Assembly (NCBI GenBank): GCA_005788235.1
Contig: SXYU01000093.1
Coordinates: 1 to 49,685, forward strand
DNA length: 49,685 bases
Direction: 5' to 3'
Origin: Cytophagales bacterium
GTDB lineage: Bacteria > Bacteroidota > Bacteroidia > Cytophagales > Cyclobacteriaceae
The notes under the pieces were generated by a model, which saw nothing but the letters and a program-made list of their open reading frames with translations, was not told the origin of the DNA and ran no database searches. How positions within the stretch are numbered: the first letter of the stretch is position 1; every line of letters starts with the position of its first letter. The translations under genes were made by a program, and so were the position numbers. This document shows positions 43,138-47,454 of the stretch, in pieces.

Positions 43138-43785
43138 ATGGCAACAGCACCATCCCCCTTGACTCAAAAAGTTTCAGAGGCCCTAGACTTTGATAAGCGA
43201 CTTTTCTTTGTTGTACTTGTACTTACCTTTCTTGTAATCAGATACTTGACGAATACGCTCGTATTAGAATCCATTCCTGATTCGGAACGATTGGAGGCTC
43301 AGGGTGACTTGCTATTTTTTCATATTTTTAACACGCTAAACTACCTTTGGACACCCTTTGCACTACTCTGGAAGTTTACTGTAATCGCCTTTCTTTTCTG
43401 GTCCATTGGCTTGACTATCGGATACAAAGTCAAATTTAAAGTGCTATGGCAATTCGCCTTAGTAGCCGAACTCATCTTTATTTTCCCCGAACTACTCCGC
43501 TTACTCTGGTACCTAAATCCTACGAGAACGGTGAGTTACCTGGAAATTCAAAATTTTGAGCCACTATCTGCTCTCTGGCTCCTGGGACCAGAAAATGTGC
43601 AAGAACGATTTCAATACCCCCTATCCTTACTAAATCTATTCGAAATTGGCTATGGAGTAGTATGGGTGGTTGGATTTCATACGCTTAGCCGTAGAAGCAT
43701 CCAAGAAAGCATTCCTGTGGTACTGCTGTCCTATTTCCTACCCTTATTGCTTTGGTTGGCATTTTATGCTGCCTCGTTCCGCTAA
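43138..43785 (+). CDS. hypothetical multi-pass membrane protein
   Basis: 215 aa, about 5 hydrophobic segments; no family recognised with confidence. Confidence 0.75.
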   Translation: MATAPSPLTQKVSEALDFDKRLFFVVLVLTFLVIRYLTNTLVLESIPDSERLEAQGDLLFFHIFNTLNYLWTPFALLWKFTVIAFLFWSIGLTIGYKVKFKVLWQFALVAELIFIFPELLRLLWYLNPTRTVSYLEIQNFEPLSALWLLGPENVQERFQYPLSLLNLFEIGYGVVWVVGFHTLSRRSIQESIPVVLLSYFLPLLLWLAFYAASFR

Positions 43786-43928
43786 GACGATTTTAATTTT
43801 TTAGCATCTCCCCTACAGCGGTCTGAGCAATATTTTACTTCTTCCCAGTTTTTTTCCCATTTTTTTCGCCACGTATAGGGACGGTTGCAAACCACACAGG
43901 TTTTCGTGGGTAAGTGTTGCTTTTTCAT
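43782..43928 (-). CDS. DUF2256 zinc-ribbon-like small protein
   Basis: 'MKKQHLPTKTCVVCNRPYTWRKKWEKNWEEVKYCSDRCRGDAKK'; CxxC...CxxxC; starts 1 nt after the photolyase stop. Confidence 0.88.
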   Translation of the reverse strand: MKKQHLPTKTCVVCNRPYTWRKKWEKNWEEVKYCSDRCRGDAKKLKSS

Positions 43929-43929
43929 G

Positions 43930-45396
43930 TTAGGACCAACGTTTAGAAAGGGTATGTTTGGCCAATACGCGTAACGCATCTGCTACCACTTCAGGAGCCT
44001 TTTGAGCCGCCCAGATGCGATCTCTAGCCTCAGAAGCTGCTTTTTCCACTTCGACTATAGGATAAGGGTAGGTTTCACCATAGGCAAATCCCAGCTCTTG
44101 CAATTCTATAGGAGTTAGTTCCCAAGGTGTATGCAAAAATGCAAGAGGTACTGCCGCCAGCTCTGGCACCCATTTACGAATAAAGACTCCCTCTGGATCC
44201 TGCTCTTGAGATTGTTTGATGGGATTGTAGATACGCACGGTATTGATGCCCGTGACACCAGCTTGCATTTGAAGTTGAGGATAGTGGATACCTGGCTCAA
44301 AATCTAAAAATTGCTGAGCTAGGTGGTCAGCACCCGAGTTCCAAGCCTGGCCCAAATGATGCGTAAGAAAAGAGACCACCATGGCCCGCATGCGAAAATT
44401 AAGGTAGCCTGTCGCACGCAAGCAACGCATACAGGCATCCACGAGGGGAAAGCCTGTCTTACCCTGTTCCCAAGCTTTAATCCAGACAGGTTGTGGGGTG
44501 TAGGGAAAGGATAAAAATCCACGGTTGATAGGCTCTTTTTCCATACGGGACTCCATCTCAAATTTTTGGATAAAGTGGCAATGCCACTTCAAGCGGGACT
44601 GGAAATTAGCTAGGTTACGCGTCTGAAAACCAATAGCTGACTTTTCCATAGAAGCTTGAAACACCTCTCGATGAGAAAGACATCCCCAAGCCAAATAAGG
44701 CGATAGGCGGCTACAGCCTGTTCGACTTCCTTCGGGCTTACTAATCTGTTTGCTGTAGTTTTTGACACGATCCTCAAGAAAACTTTTCAAGTACTTACGT
44801 CCATTTCTTTCTCCTCCAGGCTGCATAATATCTTGAGAAGTAGTCCAAATTTCAGGCAAAGTGGTAAAGACCTGCTGGAGTTGTCGCGCTTCAGGAATCG
44901 GAACGAAGGCAGCACGATCGAATTCTGGATGAGCGAGTGGTGCAGTCATGAACGCATGCCAAAAAGACTCCCATCCCCTTCTATTTTTGCGTTTACGCTG
45001 CACACCCTGCTGCTGGTATTCTTTCCAAGGGATGCCCTGGGCGCTGAAATAAGCTGCCATCTCCCGGTCACGGGCGTATGTGACCGCAATACCTGTTTCC
45101 TGATGCGAATAGACGGACCTTATGGAATAATCTTGCTGGATTTGTGTAAAAACCGTTTTTACTTCGGCTCTAACGATCAATAGATTGGCCTGCAGTGGAA
45201 GTAATCGCTGCTCCATGTCTTTGAGGCTTTCGCAGACAAAGCGCCAATGCCGATCGCTGCTTTGCGAAGCAGCCAGCAGGGAAGGTTCAAAGCAGAACAA
45301 AAGAAGTATTGGAAATCCTGCGGCAATGGCTTCAGCTAAGGGTTGGTGATCACTCAACCTCAAATCGCGCTTCAACCAGACCACAGAAATTTTCAT
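43930..45396 (-). CDS. cryptochrome/photolyase family FAD-binding protein
   Basis: '[21 protein letters not shown]', '[13 protein letters not shown]', '[34 protein letters not shown]', '[26 protein letters not shown]'; start taken at MKISVVW (45396). Confidence 0.93.
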
Positions 45397-45442
45397 ATTC
45401 TTAAAACCTTGGGAGCAGCTCAAGGTTTTAAGAATATGAAAA
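45390..45442. repeat. perfect 22-bp inverted repeat with 9-nt spacer spanning both divergent start codons
   Basis: Left arm TTTTCATATTCTTAAAACCTTG (45390-45411), spacer GGAGCAGCT, right arm CAAGGTTTTAAGAATATGAAAA (45421-45442). Confidence 0.97.
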
Positions 45443-45723
45443 AATTAAAAGAGCTTCCGCTCTCGGATATTGATCGCATTATCGAAATGGCCTGGGAGGA
45501 CCGCACTCCTTTTGATGCTATTTTGAGTCAATTTGGAATTACTGAGGGAGAGACCATTCAACTGATGCGTCTTCAAATGAAAAAAAGTTCATTCAAAATG
45601 TGGCGTGCACGAGTGCAAGGCCGCAGCACTAAACACAGCAAAAAAGCGCCTGAAGACTTACTTACTTTCAAATCCAGGATGCAAAAAGGAATTACTCTCA
45701 ATAAAATGCCAAAGCGGGGATAA
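45436..45723 (+). CDS. TIGR03643 family small protein
   Basis: '[59 protein letters not shown]'. Confidence 0.88.
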
Positions 45724-45768: not shown

Positions 45769-46641
45769 TTATTTCTTACCGTTCCATGGATGGGTAAGTT
45801 GCTGAAAAAATGTCTTCGGAAAAGTTTCTTGATCCTCAAAACCCAATTGCTGATTTGCGTTTTGATTGGGAATGTAGGCAGTACCAAAAAGGTAGTCCCA
45901 GAGGCTGAGCGAAATTCCATAGTTCACGGCATTACGATTCGCTGGAACTTCCTTGGCATGGTGCCACAAGTGCATGACTGGATTATTTAAGACATACTTC
46001 AGAGGTCCATAGGTGATTTTCACATTCGCATGGTTCAAATGACCAATTAATATAGTAACCATGTGCAGGATAAAGAAATCATCTAACCCAAAGCCAATCA
46101 TGGAAAGTGGAATGTATTGGACTGTTTTGTAGACAATCGTCTCCATCCAATGGTAGCGCAAGTGTGCCGCAAATCCCATCTGCTCCACAGAATGATGGAC
46201 CTTATGAAATTCCCAAAGCCAAGGACTGTAATGCAACCAACGGTGTACGTTCCACTGAATAAAGTCTGCTACCAAAAATAAAAGCAGGAATTGAGACCAA
46301 ATTGGCCATGAAGCAATCTGGAATGCTACTAAATTGTTGATTCCAAAAAGCGCTAGGAAATCATTGAATACTTCAACGGCTACATTGGATACCGCATTGT
46401 AACCAATCAGGGAGAAGATAAAGAAGTTGAAAAACATGTAAAAGCCATCCAACCAAAAATCTTCCCGTAGAGCTGCCTGATTTTTGCGCCAAGGGAAAAC
46501 CAATTCAAGACTCCAAACCACTAAGGAAATACCCAATAGCCACCAAAAATAGTTATGCCAAGAGGGGTACAAAATTTCCACGCTGAGGTAGTTCCAATAC
46601 CCGTAATATCCATCTAAGAAGACTTGAAAGTATGCTTGCAT
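45769..46641 (-). CDS. sterol desaturase / fatty acid hydroxylase family protein
   Basis: His-box motifs 'HRWLH', 'HKVHH', 'HLWHH' in a multi-TM protein. Confidence 0.92.
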   Translation of the reverse strand: MQAYFQVFLDGYYGYWNYLSVEILYPSWHNYFWWLLGISLVVWSLELVFPWRKNQAALREDFWLDGFYMFFNFFIFSLIGYNAVSNVAVEVFNDFLALFGINNLVAFQIASWPIWSQFLLLFLVADFIQWNVHRWLHYSPWLWEFHKVHHSVEQMGFAAHLRYHWMETIVYKTVQYIPLSMIGFGLDDFFILHMVTILIGHLNHANVKITYGPLKYVLNNPVMHLWHHAKEVPANRNAVNYGISLSLWDYLFGTAYIPNQNANQQLGFEDQETFPKTFFQQLTHPWNGKK

Positions 46642-46647
46642 AACAGT

Positions 46648-47454
46648 CTAGATAGCCATTAATTCTGTTGTAATAATATAGATTCCCATAAGTAACACAA
46701 ACCATCCAAAACCTGTTTTCAGAATCTCTTCATTTATTTTTTTGGATAGGGCACTTCCGATAAAAATTCCGACAATAGATAGTGATGTGAAGATCAGTAA
46801 CATCTGCCAATCAATCGTCTGGGTTGAAAGATCCCCCAAAAACCCTAGGAGTGATTTGGCAGCAATAATCAGTAAAGAAGTCCCAACCGCCATTTTCATG
46901 GGCAGCTTGGCTAGCAAAACTAAGGCTGGAATAATCAAGAAGCCACCACCTGCCCCAACAATACCAGTAATGACTCCTACCACTGATCCTTCCAGCGCTA
47001 TCATAGGAAAGTTGAATGAAACCGGTGCGTCTTCGTCAGAATCCACATATTTTTTGGTGGTAATCATGGAGTAAGAAGCGGCAAGCATAATCAGCGCAAA
47101 AAACACCATGATCCCGATATTTTTGGTAATTATTGCTTCGCCTATGGAAAACAAATGGTCAGGAAGTGCTGGGACAAGAAATTTTCGTGTCAAAAAAACG
47201 GCAATAAAAGAGGGGATGGCAAATACTAAGGCGGTTTTGTAATTCACCAATCCTTTTTTCATGTAAGTGGCCGTACCTATCAGAGAAGTGCTCCCAACCA
47301 CAAACAAGGAATAGGCAGTGGCCAAAACAGGATTTATCCCCAAAATATAAACTAGAACAGGAACGGTTAAAATAGAACCTCCTCCACCTATCAAACCCAA
47401 ACTTACTCCAATCAAAATAGCAGCAGCAAAACCAATAATTACGATAACGTCCAT
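46648..47454 (-). CDS. sulfite exporter TauE/SafE family protein
   Basis: 'GLIGGGGSILTVPVLVYILGINPVLATAYSLFVVG', 'GVITGIVGAGGGFLIIPALVLLAKLPMKMAVGTSLLIIA'. Confidence 0.94.
   Translation of the reverse strand: MDVIVIIGFAAAILIGVSLGLIGGGGSILTVPVLVYILGINPVLATAYSLFVVGSTSLIGTATYMKKGLVNYKTALVFAIPSFIAVFLTRKFLVPALPDHLFSIGEAIITKNIGIMVFFALIMLAASYSMITTKKYVDSDEDAPVSFNFPMIALEGSVVGVITGIVGAGGGFLIIPALVLLAKLPMKMAVGTSLLIIAAKSLLGFLGDLSTQTIDWQMLLIFTSLSIVGIFIGSALSKKINEEILKTGFGWFVLLMGIYIITTELMAI

Follow-up and report, generated by a model that had tools for sequence, protein, structure and literature searches.

The inverted repeat between phr and the TIGR03643 gene

The window, by which we mean the whole 49.7-kb stretch of DNA analysed here, belongs to a MAG of the genus Algoriphagus and contains a divergently oriented gene pair, encoding a photolyase/cryptochrome family protein and a TIGR03643/DUF2805 protein, with a perfect inverted repeat embedding both starts. 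The features of the locus are as follows:

43782..43979, − strand: DUF2256 gene (DUF2256, 78.9 bits), overlapping the 3′ end of phr
43930..45396, − strand: phr, photolyase/cryptochrome family, 488 aa; the − strand GTT lies 8 nt ahead of the start
45390..45411, no strand: left arm of the inverted repeat (22 bp, perfect), TTTTCATATTCTTAAAACCTTG
45404..45428, no strand: AAAC-N17-GTTT, the self-complementary core and putative ECF promoter for both directions (based on AAAC/GTTT invariance and a held-out matrix)
45404..45407, + strand: AAAC, which would serve TIGR03643 as −35 box and, through its complement, phr as −10 box
45421..45442, no strand: right arm of the inverted repeat (22 bp, perfect), CAAGGTTTTAAGAATATGAAAA
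45425..45428, + strand: GTTT, which would serve TIGR03643 as −10 box and, through its complement, phr as −35 box
45436..45723, + strand: TIGR03643/DUF2805 gene, 95 aa; GTT lies 8 nt ahead of the start

Domain matches confirmed both gene assignments of the first-pass annotation (photolyase and TIGR03643): the product of the 45436..45723 gene matches the TIGR03643 model with 109.8 bits (cut-off 66.6) and DUF2805 with 112.1 bits, and the phr product contains FAD_binding_7 (224 bits) and DNA_photolyase (77 bits) domains. The DUF2256 gene is likely co-transcribed with phr. Beyond TIGR03643 lie convergently oriented genes of the fatty-acid hydroxylase family (45769-46641) and the TauE/SafE transporter family (46648-47454), and the order of hydroxylase and TauE/SafE genes after TIGR03643 is repeated in G002 (L109). 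A Bacteroidota-type TIGR03643 protein with 66% identity is also encoded by a sequence titled Williamsia sp., an actinobacterium (L219, JADCRZ010000114.1), which is probably a mis-binned contig.

The repeat has the architecture originally described for it, namely, two 22-nt arms with 100% complementarity flanking a 9-nt spacer, with the start ATGs at equal offsets in the two arms (phr, 45394-45396, − strand; TIGR03643, 45436-45438, + strand), 39 nt between the start codons and an in-frame upstream extension encoding QGFKNMK possible for both genes. The two coding starts share ATGAAAA in this genome. The repeat is real and exceeds by far what chance would produce: no other close inverted repeat in the window has arms of this length, the next perfect one reaching 14 nt, and 12 first-order Markov windows matched in composition had longest arms of 10–13 nt. 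The 22-mer of the arm has a single occurrence in the genome, and the fold of the repeat region has a z-score of −9.4 for DNA and −9.5 for RNA (−31 kcal/mol). The first-pass annotation had allowed for an assembly artefact, which is contradicted by the presence of the same perfect repeat in two independent congener genomes, G005 and G007, the latter with a compensated change in both arms. In the MAGs G036 (contigs C163/C86) and G007 (C81/C118), contigs end near the repeat with overlapping sequence, as if the assembly had been interrupted there by the hairpin or by strain variation.

Conservation of the core and of the outer arms

The core and the outer parts of the arms differ in how they are conserved among Algoriphagus congeners. 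In a column-by-column comparison of 17 distinct species, in which AAC and GTT, but not the adjoining A and T, served as selection criteria and set the register, AAAC and GTTT were invariant. All examined congeners with the divergent pair keep AAAC-N17-GTTT, with a start codon 8 nt past GTT on at least one side and usually on both. The TIGR03643 start occupies this position in nearly all of them, and the phr start is found at the mirrored distance as ATG in the closest relatives and as GTG in many other congeners. The two halves of the core covary among congeners (AAACC/GGTTT, AAACT/AGTTT and AAACCA/TGGTTT); in Belliella, the halves are non-complementary (AAACA/AGTTT). Both core halves are also kept before TIGR03643, with a spacer of 18, in G002 and G006, which have no phr beside this gene. 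In G006 (L118, C75:36169-36408), TIGR03643 itself appears disrupted, with an in-frame TGA and a shortened frame, and the proposed promoter core is still there despite the apparently broken gene and the missing adjacent phr.

The outer 7 nt of the arms match at all seven positions in the present genome (G000), G005 and G007, at six in G027, at five in G036 and G008 and at 0–4 elsewhere; of six near relatives, just three have perfect outer arms. Because only the core is kept genus-wide and the outer arms are rarely perfect, a long hairpin or a long operator is not the conserved function. On this comparison, the long perfect symmetry appears to be recent, specific to a sub-lineage and dispensable, and the core is the conserved part. 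The first-pass annotation had regarded close relatives without the symmetry, but with unchanged expression, as evidence against its proposals; relatives outside the closest clade do lack the long symmetry, but retain the core.

The strict pattern AAACYTT-N11-AARGTTT, when searched for elsewhere in relatives, produced scattered intragenic matches in the loci read and no clear regulon. In G019, the contigs C17, C26, C27, C41 and C46 carry the same AAACTTTAACTAAAATTCAAAGTTT copy, mostly near contig ends, and these copies are probably part of a repeated mobile element.

A shared module before light, repair and carotenoid genes

A unidirectional version of the core, AAC-N17/18-GTT-N7-10-start, precedes orthologues of genes encoding a SOUL heme-binding protein, an AlkB-like dioxygenase and cryptochrome-DASH, as well as crtZ-litR and ispH. 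Orthologue sites parsed with the module number 11 for SOUL, 13 for alkB-like and 7 for cryptochrome-DASH genes, and in the SOUL, alkB-like, DASH and crtZ families the spacer is 17 or 18, with a near-fixed distance to the start (7-9 nt). In small-genome congeners for SOUL and in much of the genus for alkB, AAC, GTT and the start distance are kept while the flanks change. The cryptochrome-DASH upstream region reads CAAACAYT...CTGTT-N8-ATG; crtZ, which opens the litR-ECF operon, is preceded by AAC-N17/18-GTT-N9-start in most congeners, and the module is also found before ispH of the carotenoid cluster and before a second carotenoid desaturase of the CrtI/CrtD type. Otherwise, the unidirectional sites are asymmetric, as in SOUL (AAACTTTTTT...TAGTTT) and alkB (AAACCA...GAGTTGA), and the base beside AAC/GTT is complementary in 27 of 50 such sites, a set that includes one Algoriphagus site with divergent phr; this is more than in shuffles (p = 0.004, uncorrected for kinship). 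For the class-I-type photolyase (about 435 aa), no motif was present in the single upstream region that could be read without ambiguity (L143).

Searching the genome itself for AAAC-N17/18-GTT-N7/8-ATG yielded 18 matches, among which the convincing gene starts are those of phr, TIGR03643, the SOUL heme-binding protein and the AlkB-like dioxygenase. The pattern is not enriched in this genome (18 matches vs 42 for the reversed-pattern control) and, therefore, the match list alone proves nothing; the case for the module as a functional unit rests on which genes carry AAC...GTT and on its conservation.

Among 80 TIGR03643 loci drawn from across Bacteroidota, the start-anchored motif was found at 18 TIGR03643 starts, compared with 2 of 250 other ORFs at the same loci (Fisher p about 2e-10). 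Both control matches are of the photolyase type, one being the Belliella phr and the other a photolyase-related protein of a Chitinophagaceae member, an assignment based on the N-terminus alone. The 18 motif-bearing TIGR03643 genes include some from Algoriphagus/Belliella with divergent phr and others without divergent phr. We also scanned both strands of the 49.7-kb window with a weight matrix built from SOUL, alkB, DASH and crtZ sites only, with phr and TIGR03643 left out: the two strands of the repeat ranked second and third overall and first and second among ATG-anchored sites.

The genome carries the operon crtZ-litR-ECF-crtI-crtB-lycopene cyclase, where LitR is a protein with MerR and B12-binding domains that is nearest to CarH, yet falls below the cut-off of the CarH model; no anti-sigma gene was seen beside the ECF gene. 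With regard to autoregulation of the sigma gene through its own motif, a feature of ECF promoters, the AAC...GTT motif precedes crtZ, the first gene in crtZ-litR-ECF, rather than the ECF gene directly. The latter is directly preceded by a LitR-box-like dyad, TTGTTTAA...TTAAACAA, which is conserved in many Bacteroidota and is likely the operator of LitR (B12-MerR). In the present genome (L096, G000:C283, 3653-3846), the dyad between litR and the ECF gene reads TTTTGTTTAATC-N12-GATTAAACAAAA, and variants of TTGTTTAA/TTAAACAA lie upstream of the ECF gene in L295-L311.

In a sample of 28 further genomes, the carotenoid-operon ECF group, called at E below 1e-40, was present in 11 of the 12 genomes with the TIGR03643 motif and in 6 of the 16 without it (p = 0.006), an association that is confounded by phylogeny, given that the sampled Flavobacteriia tend to have neither. 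One motif-bearing MAG was without an ECF match, and litR and/or crtI adjoin the ECF-group genes of this sample in most cases. Within the genus, a test based on absence of the ECF is uninformative because nearly all Algoriphagus congeners have it.

A candidate two-way ECF promoter

We consider that the 25-bp core probably promotes transcription in both directions under an ECF sigma factor, the likeliest candidate being the one encoded in the crtZ-litR-ECF-crtI-crtB operon, which would co-induce both genes. The sequence itself, its conservation, the recurrence of the module at other light-gene starts and the association with the ECF are observations, from which we infer the identity of the sigma factor, the transcription start sites, light control, the mutual exclusion of the two orientations and the origin of the outer arms. 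Because AAC and GTT are reverse complements, AAAC-N17-GTTT is identical on both strands and, with −35 and −10 boxes that are reverse-complementary to each other, RNA polymerase and its sigma factor should be able to bind either way. The same four bases would double as the −35 box of one gene and, on the opposite strand, the −10 box of the other, producing face-to-face promoters. With initiation about 8 nt past GTT, both transcripts would begin at their start codons or a few bases away, as near-leaderless mRNAs; polymerase bound in one orientation should block binding in the other, and light, acting via LitR on the ECF gene, may jointly induce phr-DUF2256 and TIGR03643. Of the two promoter locations deduced in the first-pass annotation, inside the repeat or in the opposing gene, the former fits this evidence.

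ECF promoters are characterized by AAC in the −35 and CGT in the −10 box, with AAC and CGTT described for EcfG (PMC8103513). The core contains the AAC of the −35 box, and AAAC is the same in SOUL, alkB and DASH; ECF-type spacing with a tolerance of about 1 bp and a start just downstream were found across the gene families. The AAC and GTT boxes, their ECF-like spacing and their location at the starts of stress and repair genes resemble known ECF promoters (PMC8103513), whereas the −10 box of the module, GTT(T) preceded by A, G or T and without the C of the usual CGT (that is, NGTT), the palindromic layout and the presumed near-leaderless transcripts set it apart.

The symmetry of the core would also suit an operator for a dimeric regulator, of the MerR/LitR type or another, exerting symmetric control over both genes. 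MerR-family sites, such as that of CueR, have half-site spacing like that of AAACYTT-N11-AARGTTT, and share with the core a dyad; by contrast, the module occurs in asymmetric unidirectional versions and with a variable spacer. A MerR/CueR-like operator, our first idea based on the ACCTT-N11-AAGGT spacing, was demoted on account of these asymmetric, variably spaced unidirectional copies, and a LitR/CarH operator was rejected because the box before the ECF gene, assigned to LitR by inference, differs in sequence from 45404-45428. The true dyad symmetry, the covariation of the halves among congeners, some excess of complementarity beside AAC/GTT even at unidirectional sites and the presence of a LitR gene in the genome all speak for a dimeric regulator. 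Against it stand the spacer, which is 17/18 between the genes and 18 where phr was lost, the otherwise asymmetric SOUL and alkB sites, the non-complementary halves in Belliella and the near-fixed 7-9 nt to the start codon, which leave no conserved space in which a separate promoter could sit. The symmetric operator suggested in the first-pass annotation accordingly retains some plausibility, but the recurring asymmetric AAC...GTT, with its 17/18 spacer and near-fixed start distance, fits a sigma promoter better; we leave about a fifth of the probability with a dimeric regulator because of the palindromic core and the excess complementarity in unidirectional sites.

Two other mechanisms put forward initially fare worse. 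The idea that read-through transcripts form an RNA hairpin which hides both start codons draws on the very stable fold in this genome, but pairing extends over about 7 bp in most congeners, of which L012, L019 and L017 fold no better than shuffles, and near-leaderless starts, if correctly deduced, would leave the hairpin out of the mRNA; we consider this very improbable. An inversion-duplication that gave both genes one leader would explain the perfect identity over 22 bp in this genome, but outside the closest relatives the non-core arms are unrelated while the core stays. With such unrelated leaders, and with GTG as the phr start codon, at an unchanged offset, in many congeners, there was no ancestral duplicated leader, and this scenario is the least credible of all. 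The long perfection itself is rather likely to be a functionless by-product of quasi-palindrome correction, or of chance, over the short core and the shared ATGAAAA, an explanation that concerns the outer arms only and is compatible with the ECF promoter. The restriction of full outer matches to G000, G005 and G007, and the joint change of both arms in G007, are consistent with this origin; on the other side, it draws on a handful of genomes (six for the template-switch inference) with poorly resolved relationships and order of events, so that selection acting on the outer arms keeps some probability. Under the ECF promoter reading, the outer symmetry would be a lineage-specific addition, aided by ATGAAAA and plausibly shaped by hairpin-templated correction, that the promoter would not require.

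Bidirectional promoters, in which RNA polymerase binds pseudo-symmetric DNA in two ways and transcribes divergently, have been described by Warman, Grainger and colleagues (PMC12825309, PMC10268837). In the known cases, a near-symmetric −10 box of the housekeeping sigma is shared and the starts are 18 (also 10 or 23) bp apart (PMC12825309, PMC10268837), and in Escherichia coli the two orientations are mutually exclusive (PMC12825309). The locus analysed here does not conform to a shared −10 box with starts about 18 bp apart, considering the distance between its start codons; instead, we propose reciprocal −35/−10 boxes, a separation of about 40 bp between the two starts and recognition by an ECF sigma factor. 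Light control is an analogy-based proposal, since it is modelled on the Streptomyces cascade, in which light acts through LitR and the ECF sigma factor LitS on crtE (PMC12705666). As in Streptomyces, a B12-MerR photosensor gene lies beside an ECF sigma gene and carotenoid genes, but the Bacteroidota system has its own box sequences, and its putative targets include phr, TIGR03643, SOUL and alkB. The blue-light response of Vibrio cholerae, which involves MerR, ChrR and SigE and induces photolyase/cryptochrome genes (PMC5241685), likewise combines MerR-type and ECF regulators with such genes; it differs in the SigE motif, TGATC-N16-18-CGTAW as opposed to AAAC-N17-GTTT, and in having an anti-sigma factor, none of which adjoins the ECF gene here. 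Among the papers available to it, our literature search found nothing on a Bacteroidota LitR-ECF light regulon or on ECF face-to-face promoters.

More broadly, and tentatively, the carotenoid-operon ECF of Bacteroidota may have reverse-complementary AAAC/GTTT boxes, making the promoters of its regulon near-reversible; at this locus, they would form a 25-bp, near-leaderless two-way promoter whose exclusive orientations balance the photolyase operon against TIGR03643. The proposed promoter would provide a promoter code and a candidate light regulon for a Bacteroidota ECF group, encompassing photolyase, TIGR03643, cryptochrome-DASH, SOUL, alkB-like and carotenoid genes, and its reciprocal −35/−10 boxes would represent a two-way promoter design differing from the shared −10 type. 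The TIGR03643/DUF2805 family, so far uncharacterised, would also gain a link to the light response in several orders.
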